Of a stretch of DNA of 30,267 nucleotides, positions 1 to 30,267 are shown piece after piece. A model generated the notes under the pieces. That model was not told the origin of the DNA and ran no database searches. It worked only from the letters and a program-made list of their open reading frames with translations. The stretch covers positions 1-30,267 of the IMG/VR virus record IMGVR_UViG_3300030380_002914. The stretch is one strand, 5' to 3'. Made by a program: the position numbers and the translations under genes. Source of the DNA: a virus. Position 1 is the stretch's first letter. The number at the start of each line of letters is the position of its first letter.

Positions 1-125
1 TCAAAACTGCAATGGAAGGTGACTTCGATACAGGTAATATGAGATTTAAAGCTAGAGAAAGATACTCTTTTGGATTCTCAGATCCAAGATGTGTATTTGG
101 TAATGGAAATCTACCAACTAGTTAA
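1..125 (+). CDS. Probable major capsid protein, C-terminal end only
   Basis: The reading frame is open from base 3 to a TAA at 123-125, giving the last 40 residues of a protein that begins outside the window. The tail contains MRFKARERYSFGFSDPR, which resembles the C-terminus of phage coat proteins in which an ERYSFG(W/F)xDPR stretch precedes the end. It is followed at once by a strong terminator and then by virion-type genes, the usual place for a highly expressed capsid gene. The identification rests on a short C-terminal motif and position, so it is moderate. Another head protein is possible. Confidence 0.5.
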   Translation, partial: KTAMEGDFDTGNMRFKARERYSFGFSDPRCVFGNGNLPTS

Positions 126-150: not shown

Positions 151-181
151 AGGGGCGGTGTTCACATCGCCCCTTTTTTTA
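151..181 (+). terminator. Rho-independent terminator after the capsid gene
   Basis: A 9-bp stem (152-160 with 165-173) including one G-U pair closes a UUCA tetraloop, and its 3' side runs into a tract of eight T/U residues at 173-180. The lower six pairs are all G-C. It lies 26 bases after the capsid stop codon and should end the capsid transcript. The -35 box of the next promoter sits inside its loop and 3' arm. Confidence 0.9.
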
Positions 182-189
182 TGTATAAT
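161..189 (+). promoter_or_regulatory. Sigma70-like promoter overlapping the terminator
   Basis: TTCACA at 161-166 (five of six matches to TTGACA) and a perfect TATAAT at 184-189 are separated by exactly 17 bases. Transcription would begin near 195-197, so the next gene would have an 80-base structured leader. The promoter shares bases with the terminator, which would cut capsid transcription while restarting synthesis for the downstream genes. Confidence 0.65.
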
Positions 190-209
190 AGAAAGACCTA
201 GAAAAATTA

Positions 210-262
210 TTATGTCGACTGGCTAGGCAGACGGTATAGAGACGACATAACGAACGCTATAC
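210..262 (+). ncRNA. Candidate H-type pseudoknot in a 5' leader RNA
   Basis: Two interleaved inverted repeats are visible. Stem 1 pairs 210-217 (TTATGTCG) with 243-250 (CGACATAA), 8 bp. Stem 2 pairs 234-239 (GTATAG) with 257-262 (CTATAC), 6 bp. The 5' arm of stem 2 lies in the loop of stem 1, and its 3' arm lies beyond stem 1, so the two form a classic H-type pseudoknot with linkers of 16, 3 and 6 bases. The structure ends one base before the ribosome binding site AAGGAG (264-269) of the gene starting at 276, the arrangement used by translational riboswitches and autoregulatory leaders. I do not recognise the family. The pairing is read by eye, without energies or covariation. Confidence 0.55.
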
Positions 263-275
263 AAAGGAGATTATT

Positions 276-827
276 ATGGCAAATACTACATTTAGCGGAC
301 CGGTACGATCGGAAAACGGTTTTATTGGTGCTACTAAAAATGCTTCAACAGGTGCTTTCACAAATGTTTTTGAAATTAACTCATCTGGTCAGTACGTTGG
401 AACACAAATACAAGGTCAAGGAGTTGTAGCAACTGCTACAGTTAATGCAACTGCTGGAACAAACGAAGTTACTTTTGCACAACCTGCAAGATCAATCATT
501 ACAAGTATTCAACTTGTTTGTACATCTGCACCAACTGTTGCTTCAGGTGACATTGGTTACAAAGTTGGAACTGCTACAGGAGGTGCTCAATTAGTTGCTG
601 CATCTACTGATGAAATTTTAGATGGTGGAACAACTGTTGCTGAAGGTGCTCATTACACTTTAACTCTTTTAGATACAACTGCTAGCGATGCTGCTCCAGC
701 TGCGTCTCCAAGAGTAAATACTGCACTTAACGCAACAAAAGATATATTTTTACAAATTACTAATACTACAACTGCATCTGCTCAAGGATTATTTACTTGG
801 ATTGTTGCATATAAAATATATGGTTAA
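276..827 (+). CDS. Putative head decoration or minor virion protein
   Basis: 183 residues, starting at an ATG six bases after AAGGAG. It is rich in Ala, Thr, Gly and Ser, with almost no charged residues in the middle, as in beta-rich virion proteins. The N-terminus (residues 4-16, TTFSGPVRSENGF) matches a style seen often in uncultured marine phage proteins encoded just after the capsid gene. It is first in a new transcription unit with its own promoter and structured leader, so it may be made in large and tuned amounts. Head decoration or fibre is inference from position and composition. No catalytic motif is visible. Confidence 0.6.
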   Translation: MANTTFSGPVRSENGFIGATKNASTGAFTNVFEINSSGQYVGTQIQGQGVVATATVNATAGTNEVTFAQPARSIITSIQLVCTSAPTVASGDIGYKVGTATGGAQLVAASTDEILDGGTTVAEGAHYTLTLLDTTASDAAPAASPRVNTALNATKDIFLQITNTTTASAQGLFTWIVAYKIYG

Positions 828-2742: not shown

Positions 2743-2951
2743 TTGTTGAGTCTATAGTGGCCCTGTTAATGTTTGTGAATGGAGAGATTAAAGAACATCT
2801 TATTCAACCTTCAATGGCACAATGCTTACGTGGAAAGCGTGAGGCAGAGAGACAGTACAGCGAAACTGTATCCTACAAATGCTACAAGGGTAAAGCTAAC
2901 ACAGAAATATATCAAGGCAGAAAAAGTGTAAAATCTTTAATTCTTGAATAA
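2739..2951 (+). CDS. Small conserved-looking protein with signal-like N-terminus
   Basis: 70 residues. The N-terminus (MIVESIVALLMFVNG) is hydrophobic and could act as a signal or membrane anchor. Two Cys residues (29 and 48) could form a disulfide outside the cytoplasm. It starts by an ATGA overlap and its stop overlaps the next ATG by one base. Proteins with a very similar beginning are familiar from marine phage genomes, always unnamed. A periplasmic role near the lysis genes is inference. Confidence 0.65.
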   Translation: MIVESIVALLMFVNGEIKEHLIQPSMAQCLRGKREAERQYSETVSYKCYKGKANTEIYQGRKSVKSLILE

Positions 2952-3655
2952 TGGCTTATTTGAATGTAAACATTCCACCAGTTTATTGTCAAATAAGGAG
3001 GGAGTATTTATATGATCTCAAAGAAAATAAAGGACAGCTTCGTGACTGTGTTATCTTTGGTATGGCTTCCATTCCAGGTCGTTCACTACTATTTCACATT
3101 ATGCTTCCGAATGGTGCCTGTTACTGGCGTTTACCAATATCTGCTTTCGTTCAAAAAGGATTTGATATTAAACAAGTTCCGGATATGGAATTACACGAAC
3201 TTGAACTTTGGAATTGTTTTAGTTATTGGCCTAGTGTTCATAAGTTTGATTGGTTGGCTGGTTTAGATGGAAAATTTATGGGGATTGATAAAAAATTTCA
3301 TCACGGACGTTATTTATTTACTATTGATTGGGCCCATCCTGACACTAATATATTGGACGTGGAACACTCTGAAATTCCTCAAGAACATAAGTGTGCGCAT
3401 ATATTGGCTCTTAATAACGGCAATTTTGCAGCTCAGCCTAATAATCGTATTTTGTGGCACGTTAATAGCTATACTACTGATAACGATTGGCCTGACTATA
3501 AAGTACAAACTACTTACTGGGATGCGGAAAATTCTGACCTTATAACAGAAGATTCAGATAATATGTTTTACGAAGTTAATTTAAAAAAAGATCCAAAAAG
3601 AACATATGAATCATACAAAGATTATGCTACAGACAAATCTTATGAAAATGAATAA
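2951..3655 (+). CDS. Conserved marine phage protein, unknown function
   Basis: 234 residues, starting on the last base of the previous stop. The N-terminal half is distinctive (VYCQIRREYLYDL; ASIPGRSLLFHIMLPNG; CYWRLPISAFVQ) and familiar from many uncultured marine phages, where it is annotated only as hypothetical. It is rich in Trp, Tyr, His and Asn, with no membrane segment. Its base composition is less AT-rich than the oxygenase gene that follows. AAGGAGGG at 2996-3003 is explained here as consecutive Arg codons rather than a second start. No enzyme motif is visible. Confidence 0.75.
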   Translation: MAYLNVNIPPVYCQIRREYLYDLKENKGQLRDCVIFGMASIPGRSLLFHIMLPNGACYWRLPISAFVQKGFDIKQVPDMELHELELWNCFSYWPSVHKFDWLAGLDGKFMGIDKKFHHGRYLFTIDWAHPDTNILDVEHSEIPQEHKCAHILALNNGNFAAQPNNRILWHVNSYTTDNDWPDYKVQTTYWDAENSDLITEDSDNMFYEVNLKKDPKRTYESYKDYATDKSYENE

Positions 3656-27775: not shown

Positions 27776-28440
27776 AATTAAACAGAAAATATCCATATAA
27801 ACATTACAATAGATTTTCAGATACAACTGGTAGGAAGTATCTTGTTGATAATATAAAAGTCCCTTCAGTAACCACTATATTGAGTGCCACTAAAGATAGA
27901 AGATTTTTAGATAATTGGCGAAGACGAGTGGGAGATACAGAAGCCGACAGAATAATGAGACAAGCCTCTACCATTGGAACGGAGATGCACCAAGTTCTAG
28001 AATATTATCTTACAGGGCAAGGTTATTACAATGCAGCAGAAGAAGGAACTAAACCAAGAATGATGGCAAAAACCATTTTGGACAATATTAAATTAGATGA
28101 AGTATGGGGAAATGAAATAAGTTTAGAATACAAAAATCAATTTGCAGGAACTTGTGATCTAACAGCAGTTGCATACGGAAAACCTAGTATTGTAGATTGG
28201 AAACAATCAAATAGACCCAAAAAAGAAGAATGGGTAGAGGACTATAAACTACAGCTAGGAGCCTATTATTTAGCCCATACAGCCAACTACGGGCCCATAG
28301 AACAGGGAGTCATAGCGATTTGTACCCGAGACCTTCAATATCAAGAATTTAAGCTCTCAGAGGCTGATTTAAAAGAATATGGTGAGAAATTTTTAGAAAG
28401 ATTAGGTGAGTATAATAAGCTACAAAAGCCAGTCTCTTAG
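27772..28440 (+). CDS. RecB-like PD-(D/E)XK exonuclease
   Basis: 222 residues. It carries the RecB/Cas4-type motif set in order: G69-T-E-M-H73 (STIGTEMHQ), E119 (ISLEY), D129 (AGTCDLTA), D142-x-K144 (SIVDWKQSN), and Q161 with following Tyr (LQLGAYYLA). All catalytic residues are present. Such phage nucleases trim DNA ends in replication and recombination, or degrade host DNA, as T7 gp6 does by a different fold. The start is coupled to the XhlA-like gene by ATGA. Its 3' end overlaps the convergent helicase gene by 21 bases. Confidence 0.85.
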   Translation: MKLNRKYPYKHYNRFSDTTGRKYLVDNIKVPSVTTILSATKDRRFLDNWRRRVGDTEADRIMRQASTIGTEMHQVLEYYLTGQGYYNAAEEGTKPRMMAKTILDNIKLDEVWGNEISLEYKNQFAGTCDLTAVAYGKPSIVDWKQSNRPKKEEWVEDYKLQLGAYYLAHTANYGPIEQGVIAICTRDLQYQEFKLSEADLKEYGEKFLERLGEYNKLQKPVS

Positions 28441-29847
28441 ATCTTCTTCACCTAAAGTTTTAGCAGCTATTTGACCTTTATTAGTAAGTGACTTCATAAT
28501 CGCTTCATCTAATGTATTTCTAGCTACAATATCAATATAAACTACAGAACCTTTCTGGCCCATTCTATGTGCTCTGTCTTCTGATTGTTTACGCACTTCT
28601 AAATTGTAATTGTTTGAGAAGTAAATAACAGTATTACAAGCAGTAAGTGTGAGACCAAAACCGCCAGTAGTAGGATTTCCCACCATAAACCTAGTTTTTT
28701 CATCTGTTTGTATACGTTCAACTGCTTTTTTTCTATCTTCGACATCTACTTCCCCATAAATAGATACGACAGCATCTTTGCCATATTTTTGTTCAAGAAA
28801 ATTAATGATTTCCTTGATGTTATAAATATAATTAGCCCATATTATCACTTTACCATCTGTTTCTTCAAGAATCTCCTCCAAAGCATTAAGCTTAGATTTA
28901 TGTAAAGCCATGATTTGGCCATCATCATTCTTTGAAAAACCATTACATACTTGATGAAGTTTAATTATTTCGGTGAGTTTATTTGAAAATGATATGGTAC
29001 TATCTTCAACAATAGCAAGAGCTGTTGTTCTTAGTTTTTCATATATTTTTTTACCCTCACCTTCTAATTCAATATATCTTTTTTGACGAATCTTAGGTTT
29101 TAAATCTAAACATTGGTCTTTTCGTATCCTTGTTGAAAACTGTTGCATTTTTATCTCTAGTTCTTCAAGCCTTTTGTAGTATTTGGGTACACTTATAAAC
29201 CTACCTGAGCCTACAGGTATGTCAGTCATCTCAGCATATCTATTTCTAAAAGCTAGGTAACTAGAAAAACCTAATAATTCTGGACTTAGAAATTGACATT
29301 GTGTATATAGGTCTAATGGAGATTTTGTTATTGGCGATCCTGTTAGGATACGCCTTATACGCGACAGTGATCGTAATCCTAAAATGTTCTTTGTTCTTTT
29401 TGCTGATCTATTTTTTATGGTGGTTGATTCATCCAGTGCTACAAAATTTAATTTATTTTTAGATAAATAATCTACACATCCATTGAAACCTCTTTTGGTA
29501 GATAAAGCTTCAACGTTAATTAGAAAGATTCTAAGTTCTGAGCTTTTATTTAATTTTTCTAAATCTTTTGGTTTATCTATATTCCATTTAAATATTTTAT
29601 ACTTTACACTTTCTGGTATATGTGTTTCTATTTCTGTTTCCCAAACTGTGTAAACTGATTTTGGTGCAATTATTAAAGCTGATGTTATTTCTTTTTTTAA
29701 ATATAAGTAAGCCATGTTATCAATGGTAACTTTAGTTTTTCCTGTTCCCATTTCCATGAAGTAAGCCCACTGCGTTTTTTCAGCAGATTGATTAAGAGCA
29801 TTTCTTTGATGCTCATATGGGGTAGTCTTATACGGGTATTTCCACAT
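28420..29847 (-). CDS. SNF2-family DNA helicase/translocase
   Basis: 475 residues on the minus strand from the ATG at 29847-29845. The frame could begin 34 codons earlier (29949), but this would overlap the divergent gene and run through its binding site. Residues 10-16 (PYEHQRNA) are motif Q-like. Motif I is G34-T-G-K-T38, motif II is D139-E-S-T, motif III is LTGSPI (168-173), and motif VI is QSEDRAHRMGQ (421-431). Superfamily 2 ATPases of this type move along or remodel DNA in phage replication. It is the only minus-strand gene seen. Confidence 0.88.
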   Translation of the reverse strand: MWKYPYKTTPYEHQRNALNQSAEKTQWAYFMEMGTGKTKVTIDNMAYLYLKKEITSALIIAPKSVYTVWETEIETHIPESVKYKIFKWNIDKPKDLEKLNKSSELRIFLINVEALSTKRGFNGCVDYLSKNKLNFVALDESTTIKNRSAKRTKNILGLRSLSRIRRILTGSPITKSPLDLYTQCQFLSPELLGFSSYLAFRNRYAEMTDIPVGSGRFISVPKYYKRLEELEIKMQQFSTRIRKDQCLDLKPKIRQKRYIELEGEGKKIYEKLRTTALAIVEDSTISFSNKLTEIIKLHQVCNGFSKNDDGQIMALHKSKLNALEEILEETDGKVIIWANYIYNIKEIINFLEQKYGKDAVVSIYGEVDVEDRKKAVERIQTDEKTRFMVGNPTTGGFGLTLTACNTVIYFSNNYNLEVRKQSEDRAHRMGQKGSVVYIDIVARNTLDEAIMKSLTNKGQIAAKTLGEEDLRDWLL

Positions 29848-29857
29848 CCTATACACA

Positions 29858-29885
29858 TATATATTTTTTTTGTTTACAAGATCAA
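29858..29885 (-). promoter_or_regulatory. Candidate promoter for the helicase gene
   Basis: On the minus strand, TTGATC (29885-29880) and TATATA (29863-29858) are separated by 16 bases. Transcription would start near 29851, only about four bases before the helicase ATG, and no Shine-Dalgarno stands before that codon. The divergent gap (29848-29917) must hold promoters or binding sites for both directions. Confidence 0.4.
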
Positions 29886-29917
29886 GTAAATAATTTAAGA
29901 CCCCAACAGGAGGATTT

Positions 29918-30267
29918 ATGGATATTGAAAAAATGTCAAATATAGACATTAGTCAAGATAGTGTGAAATCTATTTCTGACAAATGTAATCAACTTAAAAA
30001 CTTAAGACAACAAATTGAAGACGAAGAAAAAAAATTATCTACTCTAAAAAATCAATCAAGAGATTTAGAGGAGAGAGTAATTCCAGAGATGATGCAGGAA
30101 GCTGGTGTATCTTTGCTGAAATTAAGTGATGGTTCAACTGTTGAAGTTAAACCATTCTATGCAGCAAAAATTCCTGAGTCACGTGTTGACGAAGCCTTTG
30201 GCTATTTAAGAAGTAATGGGTTTGAAGACTTAATTAAGAATACTGTTACTGCTTCATTTGGTAGAGG
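29918..30267 (+). CDS. Coiled-coil protein of the DNA-metabolism module, 3' end outside the window
   Basis: The ATG at 29918 has AGGAGG at 29908-29913, and the frame stays open to the window end (116 residues). The first 60 residues form a charged coiled coil (CNQLKNLRQQIEDEEKKL). Then come ERVIPEMMQEAGVSLLKLSDG and VEVKPFYAAKIPESRVDEAF, ending NTVTASFGR. I know similar proteins from podoviruses, encoded among replication genes and unnamed. The conserved part has no visible catalytic motif. It is a possible DNA- or SSB-related factor, but that is not shown. Confidence 0.75.
   Translation, partial: MDIEKMSNIDISQDSVKSISDKCNQLKNLRQQIEDEEKKLSTLKNQSRDLEERVIPEMMQEAGVSLLKLSDGSTVEVKPFYAAKIPESRVDEAFGYLRSNGFEDLIKNTVTASFGR

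Follow-up and report, generated by a model that had tools for sequence, protein, structure and literature searches.

The analysed stretch of DNA (hereafter the window) comprises 30,267 bases, positions 1-30,267 of the IMG/VR virus record IMGVR_UViG_3300030380_002914. Between the end of a Mu-gpT-like capsid gene and an open reading frame at 276-827, it contains a putative leader RNA (approximately 196-275). The features of this region, all on the plus strand, are as follows.

1-125, plus strand: 3' end of the major capsid protein gene, with a C-terminus (DPRCVFGNGNLPTS) identical to that of the capsid protein of locus L010
150-180, plus strand: intrinsic terminator of the capsid transcript (11-bp stem, 7 GC, T tract)
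161-189, plus strand: sigma-70 type promoter (TTCACA at 161-166, 17-nt spacer, TATAAT at 184-189; 11 of 12 consensus positions)
197-201, plus strand: 5' strand of helix P0 (CCUAG), pairing with 223-227 in the loop of hairpin P2
210-217, plus strand: 5' strand of helix P1, UUAUGUCG (DNA TTATGTCG), 8 bp with 243-250
217-243, plus strand: core, GAC at 217-219, 230-232 and 241-243, with G217 and C243 paired
219-230, plus strand: hairpin P2 (CUG 219-221 with CAG 228-230), the loop of which displays CUAGG
223-227, plus strand: 3' strand of P0 (CUAGG)
234-239, plus strand: 5' strand of helix P3, GUAUAG (DNA GTATAG), within the joining segment J (233-240)
243-250, plus strand: 3' strand of P1, CGACAUAA (DNA CGACATAA), exact complement of 210-217
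257-262, plus strand: 3' strand of P3, CUAUAC (DNA CTATAC), 6 bp with 234-239, 2 nt before AGGAG
264-269, plus strand: Shine-Dalgarno sequence AAGGAG
276-827, plus strand: the putatively controlled gene, encoding a 183-aa all-beta protein with the conserved N-terminus MANTTFSGPVRSENGF

Protein matches bore out the order of capsid gene, leader and virion-type gene given in a preliminary description of the locus. The capsid gene was assigned to the Mu-gpT-like (phrog_371) family through its complete relative in L010, whose profile matches were phrog_371 (4.5e-23), Phage_capsid_4 (2.4e-12) and, barely above the cut-off, Pfam Mu-like_gpT. At 150-189, the -35 box lies inside the terminator loop region and the -10 box directly follows the T tract; a -35 box in the terminator loop was found again in many relatives (loop TTTACA or TTTACT). 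Elsewhere in the window, a perfect hairpin without a long T tract (GTGGCTCCTTCGGGAGCCAC, 835-856) stands directly after the stop codon of the 276-827 frame and precedes a Shine-Dalgarno sequence and a gene starting at 874. An auxiliary-type gene at 2951-3655 encodes a 234-aa protein of the PHROG 'ferredoxin' family (phrog_3704, 4.9e-77), and the minus strand, which is not that of the virion genes, encodes a DNA helicase (phrog_62, 3.4e-115) at 28420-29949.

The two interleaved perfect stems of the preliminary description, now P1 and P3, are exact, and the structure stops one base before AAGGAG, as had been described. An interleaved perfect pair of 8 and 6 bp appeared in 2 of 5000 dinucleotide shuffles of 196-275, and comparable stem pairs were present in 21 of 3019 stretches of 80 nt across the 30 kb; the geometry alone is only suggestive, and the deciding evidence is comparative. 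A single further perfect stem of at least 5 bp is present in the 80 nt, namely P0, formed between CCUAG at the predicted first bases of the transcript and the loop of the small hairpin P2. Because P0 interleaves with the 8-bp stem, the window RNA is predicted to be a double pseudoknot, in which P0 is interleaved with P1 and P1 with P3. The earlier proposal of an H-type pseudoknot holds for the two-stem knot and was incomplete, having missed the third helix (197-201/223-227) and the P2 hairpin (219-221/228-230). Only about five core bases are conserved and unpaired (A218, A231, C232, G241 and A242). The ordinary folding energy of the leader was unremarkable (z = -0.48), as is to be expected of a program that cannot form pseudoknots. 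P3 of the window is a weak A+U helix of 6 bp (duplex -3.9 kcal/mol) that covers neither the Shine-Dalgarno sequence nor the AUG. An alternative hairpin, GCUAUA 256-261 with UAUGGC 275-280 (-2.7 kcal/mol), would loop out the Shine-Dalgarno sequence, cover the AUG and compete with P3; a hairpin of this type with at least 5 bp is possible in 50 of 60 leaders of the window type. We did not adopt it because P3 and the start codon already dictate the sequence of its arms and because it has no counterpart in the forms that overlap the Shine-Dalgarno sequence.

A search with the following protein yielded 80 loci, and the leader was in the same position wherever the upstream sequence sufficed. Further loci were collected by patterns derived from the RNA alone, which supplied nearly all of the more than 400 homologous leaders. 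The parsed set consisted of 408 matches to three pattern types, 397 of them with a recognisable downstream gene; 340 were distinct, and 269 remained after the removal of near-identical sequences. The leaders have a common core, GAC-hairpin-GAC-J-GAC, with a J of 7-11 nt, and were sorted into four forms. Form S3 is the window type. Form S4 has P0, P1 and P2 as in S3, with P3 extending to the Shine-Dalgarno sequence or the start codon. Form C2, which is Rfam family RF03012 (Mu-gpT-DE), has a short P1 pairing the Shine-Dalgarno sequence itself (CCU/AGG or CCUU/AAGG) and a J whose UAGCCA is the complement of UGGCUA at the gene start. In the fourth form (L003, L439 and L514), P0 is ACUAUAC/GUAUAGU or a variant thereof, and P3, CCUAG/CUAGG, lies on the Shine-Dalgarno sequence. 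Across all forms, P3 lies immediately before, on or beyond the Shine-Dalgarno sequence, in one form at the start codon, and all 120 matches to the RNA pattern of the Mu-gpT-DE form lie a few nucleotides before an ATGGC or TTGGC start. The remaining elements are more variable: in the L061 group P0 is lost and P2 is extended into a longer hairpin that closes its own short loop, and Mu-gpT-DE type leaders have different hairpins at the P2 location. In 28 of 60 S3 leaders, the window not among them, an extra short hairpin, its stem differing between leaders (GGUC/GACC, GUG/CAC, GGGA/UCCC), carries the 3' strand of P3 in its loop; there P3 would be a contact between two loops.

The leader is carried by many aquatic phages, including ones infecting SAR11 and Roseobacter; HTVC023P, HTVC027P and CRP-901 are isolates. 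Pelagibacter phage HTVC023P has the window form, HTVC027P and phage 023Pt_psg01 have the fourth form, DSL-LC04 is S4-like (P3 UAGUAG/CUACUA), Roseobacter phage CRP-901 has the Mu-gpT-DE form (72.3 bits), and CRP-902 matches by sequence. In the distant capsid relatives examined (Alcaligenes, Caulobacter and Manatee Spring phages and Synechococcus phage MinM2), the leader was not found by eye or with the models used. In bacterial genomes, the exact pattern of the Mu-gpT-DE form had no match; the S4 pattern had 23, of which only five, all on marine MAG contigs, had P1, P3 and the gene together, and the other 18, lacking this set, were rejected as chance matches. The five contigs (L497, L498, L501, L504 and L512), in MAGs assigned to Trichodesmium, Neomarinimicrobiota, Gammaproteobacteria and Maricaulis, are probably binned phage contigs. 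Weak model matches hinting at a second RNA copy upstream of the capsid gene were dismissed, as they come from the common ribosome binding site and ATGGC in a coding region where such stems are absent.

Compensatory changes, which the preliminary description had named as the check on its two stems, are present in P1 and P3 and also in P0, and the refuting condition it had set, loss of either stem without compensation, was not borne out. In 55 aligned S3 leaders, changes on both sides were found in 5 of 5 pairs of P0, 7 of 8 of P1 and 1 of 6 of P3, the last figure being low because the search pattern fixed most of P3; P2 was held constant by the pattern. Overall, 95.0% of the cells were paired compared with 84.8% in shuffles, controls that ignore phylogeny, and 15-44% in slid controls, with P1 at 97.5%; the search patterns bias which helices can vary. 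Alignment-free tests, which avoid this bias by taking one representative per distinct segment, gave consistent results. For P3 (30 distinct J), the longest Watson-Crick run was 5.57 with the leader's own partner versus 4.02 +/- 0.19 with others; for P0 (22 distinct P2 segments), it was 4.64 versus 3.24 +/- 0.20; and for P1, 68 distinct strands had 7.66 of 8 positions paired versus 5.29. The pair equivalent to 217-243 covaries from G-C to A-U in 10 sequences. Departures from Watson-Crick pairing in P1 are G.U in 60 cases and A.C in 5, which identifies the sense RNA as the strand that folds.

If the GCCA of J pairs with the UGGC of AUGGC, a changed G should go with a changed codon 2. Among S4 leaders with A, C or T in place of this G (46 loci fetched, 45 scorable), codon 2 had GG instead of GC in 45 of 45, and the GCCA controls had UGGC in 66 of 66. 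The changed set comprised 15 distinct leaders, ten with CCCA/UGGG, one with UCCA/UGGG (U.G) and four with ACCA/UGGG, which are unpaired, so that pairing was restored in 11 of the 15. The swap from G-C to C-G occurred in at least four lineages, as judged by distinct P1 sequences and distinct following proteins; ACCA/UGGG, with the start-codon pair broken, is confined to one lineage. The capsid gene of these phages, too, normally begins with ATGGC. A pattern search for a changed GCCA in the Mu-gpT-DE form found none, and covariation therefore provides no start-codon test there. Two of these results bear on the idea of an element acting at the DNA level, for example a recombination site for swapping the C-terminal domain of the next gene. 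Such a site would suit the constant leader and N-terminus and the swapped C-terminal domains described below, but the sense-strand departures are G.U and not A.C (60 versus 5) and the pairing of codon 2 is a constraint at the mRNA level, and we consider it highly improbable.

Transcription is predicted to start at about 196 from the promoter at 161-189. The distance from the -10 box to the first paired base is 7-8 nt in the window, the same spacing being commonest among the homologues; a near-consensus -10 box was found in 58% of S3 leaders and in 7% of shuffles, usually 7 nt before the first paired base. Terminators upstream of homologous leaders were found in 52-72% of cases and in 0% of shuffles. 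Since the -10 box adjoins the first paired base, with P0 starting at about +1 or +2, the leader RNA would be the whole 5' UTR of the next gene, and the upstream terminators and promoters likewise indicate a 5' UTR of that gene rather than a capsid-gene tail. The helices, their sense strand and their placement at the predicted 5' end and the ribosome binding site are established by sequence comparison, and a conserved, pseudoknotted leader linked to the ribosome binding site is strongly supported. A structure that starts 1-2 nt past the predicted start behind strong promoters could also act as a 5'-end stabiliser, shielding a highly expressed mRNA from 5'-end-dependent decay with its translation unregulated. 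This is unlikely in our judgement, since stability requires no helix at the Shine-Dalgarno sequence or AUG, and P3 stays there despite complete changes in its sequence and place.

The statement in the preliminary description that the leader belongs to no known family is correct for the window, which had no match to the Rfam covariance models; it needs amendment in that intermediates tie the window to Mu-gpT-DE. RF03012 did not reach its gathering score (49 bits) in the window, the best match being 9.4 bits at 1931-1954, outside the leader, and low-scoring Rfam matches over the window all lay on the terminator hairpin or were attributed to chance. Leaders of another form (L053, L064, L066 and CRP-901) reach the gathering score. 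Neither RF03012 nor our S3 model (R1) bridges the window-type and Mu-gpT-DE leaders. With the S4 model (R2) over 220 kb, the best matches were the window and other S3 and S4 leaders (4e-5 to 9e-5; window 4e-5), followed by C2 leaders at the exact place (0.013-0.07 for the best five). The best RF03012 match in the record holding the S4 leader L382 is consistent with the place of that leader (E = 0.025), and the J segment AUUUGCCAAGA is common to S4 and Mu-gpT-DE leaders. The window leader also resembles Mu-gpT-DE in its place between a Mu-gpT-like capsid gene and the next start codon, in its GAC-hairpin-GAC-J-GAC core and in the downstream gene family. We therefore treat the two, from their sequences, as homologous forms linked by intermediates.

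They differ in several respects. The 8-bp P1 of the window reaches only to 250 and leaves the Shine-Dalgarno sequence downstream of it free, whereas P1 of Mu-gpT-DE has 4 bp on that sequence (CCUG/CAGG). The window has the added 5'-end helix P0 and a P2 of 3 bp, its J (GGUAUAGA) lacks the UAGCCA of Mu-gpT-DE, and its P3 lies upstream of the Shine-Dalgarno sequence and not at the start codon. Because the score and two structural features fail, the window is not filed as a member of RF03012 as modelled. The RF03012 model is without P3 and stops short of codon 2; at loci L037, L064, L079 and L513, the element overlaps the ribosome binding site of the next gene. RF03012 is named as a downstream element and typed 'Gene; sRNA' by Rfam, and normally adjoins the capsid gene, all of which would suggest an element belonging to that gene or an sRNA and not a leader. 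However, a terminator, often with a promoter, separates the RNA from the capsid gene in most cases, and the RNA pairs with the Shine-Dalgarno sequence and start codon of the next gene, which leaves this view with very little probability; the most fitting reading of Mu-gpT-DE is a translational leader of this kind and not an sRNA.

In the proteins that follow the leaders, a common N-terminus (MA.TTFSGPV.S, with variants) is joined to C-terminal parts that form 18 clusters. The predicted structure of the 276-827 product (P0001) is all-beta (pLDDT 77, pTM 0.69); its best match among solved structures was one chain in the capsid of cyanophage Pam1 (E = 1.5e-3, TM about 0.4), with the capsid of Ralstonia phage GP4 lower in the list. 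GP4 and Pam1 possess Ig-like cement proteins; GP4 has 540 copies for its 540 capsid subunits, and in Pam1 an N-terminal loop touches the capsid protein (PMC9698820). In phage DSL-LC04, the corresponding gene carries the annotation 'cement protein'. The genes behind the leaders probably encode a capsid cement or decoration protein. At 276-827 and the homologous loci, a constant leader and N-terminus combined with at least 18 interchangeable C-terminal clusters has the layout of a swap cassette, probably at the capsid surface.

The leader architecture was the same as that of the nearest capsid relative in a fraction of 0.89 of cases (random 0.29), compared with 0.27 (random 0.11) for the C-terminal domain. 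Within each of the larger C-terminal clusters, the genes follow leaders of several architectures, all of which keep P3 near the ribosome binding site. The leader tracks the capsid gene while the outer domain swaps, so that domain is unlikely to be the regulator; the tracking could also be mere linkage. The most natural candidate would be a protein of the capsid lineage, either the capsid protein or the constant N-terminus, and not a metabolite. The preliminary description had likened the leader to translational riboswitches. A small pseudoknot aptamer controlling the ribosome binding site would share this geometry, and a conserved GAC/GAC/GAC core is present, but with about five conserved unpaired core bases, no match to an Rfam riboswitch, and controlled genes that look like virion proteins and in no case metabolic, this part of the description is unsupported and a metabolite riboswitch is quite improbable.

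Our preferred reading, which we regard as probable, is that this is a cis-acting translational leader RNA that sets or times the synthesis of a capsid-coating protein relative to the capsid protein. Transcription from about 196 would yield an mRNA that opens directly with structure. The large loop of the P1 stem would hold both hairpin P2 and segment J. P0 would form by back-pairing of the P2 loop with the very first bases of the RNA, and P3 by forward pairing of J with a strand beside the ribosome binding site. The end of P3 invariably falls on the start codon, on the Shine-Dalgarno sequence or immediately before the latter, and for this reason the fold and the loading of the 30S subunit would compete or be coupled. 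In the C2 and start-codon S4 leaders, the fold would hide the Shine-Dalgarno sequence, the start codon or both, and would have to open for translation. In the window form, P3, ending 2 nt before AGGAG, would sit at the 30S landing site and could hinder or position the 30S subunit. We infer, with moderate confidence, that translation is the controlled step and that the folded state would be the low-expression state, directly so in the start-codon forms and less directly in the window form. A fixed, unregulated setting of the rate is possible, as is phage autoregulation through the leader. More tentatively, and with rather less than even probability, one leader superfamily including Mu-gpT-DE might couple cement synthesis to capsid assembly: a capsid-lineage protein (the capsid subunit or the constant N-terminal arm) would bind the GAC core and open or lock the pseudoknot, the last helix having moved among lineages between the positions upstream of the Shine-Dalgarno sequence, on it and at the start codon.

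A literature search turned up no specific earlier study of phage capsid leaders. The pseudoknot of T4/T2 gene 32 was described in 2010 as perhaps the sole viral pseudoknot used in translational autoregulation; in T4 it lies 67 nt upstream and nucleates the cooperative binding of gp32 (PMC3014915). The window leader is likewise a pseudoknot in a phage mRNA leader upstream of the ribosome binding site, whereas the helices of its family abut or cover that site and its gene encodes a virion protein; we claim no homology. It also resembles the rpsO (S15) type of ribosomal-protein leader, in which a pseudoknot linked to the ribosome binding site controls translation (PMC3014915), but leaders of that type belong to host genes and have no sequence or model match to the window.

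Among phages, a structural gene under the control of a pseudoknot would be unusual. Relocation of the helix that blocks the ribosome binding site between lineages suggests that selection keeps the blocking itself. The orphan Rfam RNA Mu-gpT-DE would gain a function and a testable mechanism, and it is widened to a large set of aquatic phages that includes cultured pelagiphages; the cultured hosts HTCC1062 and FZCC0083 make leader control directly testable.
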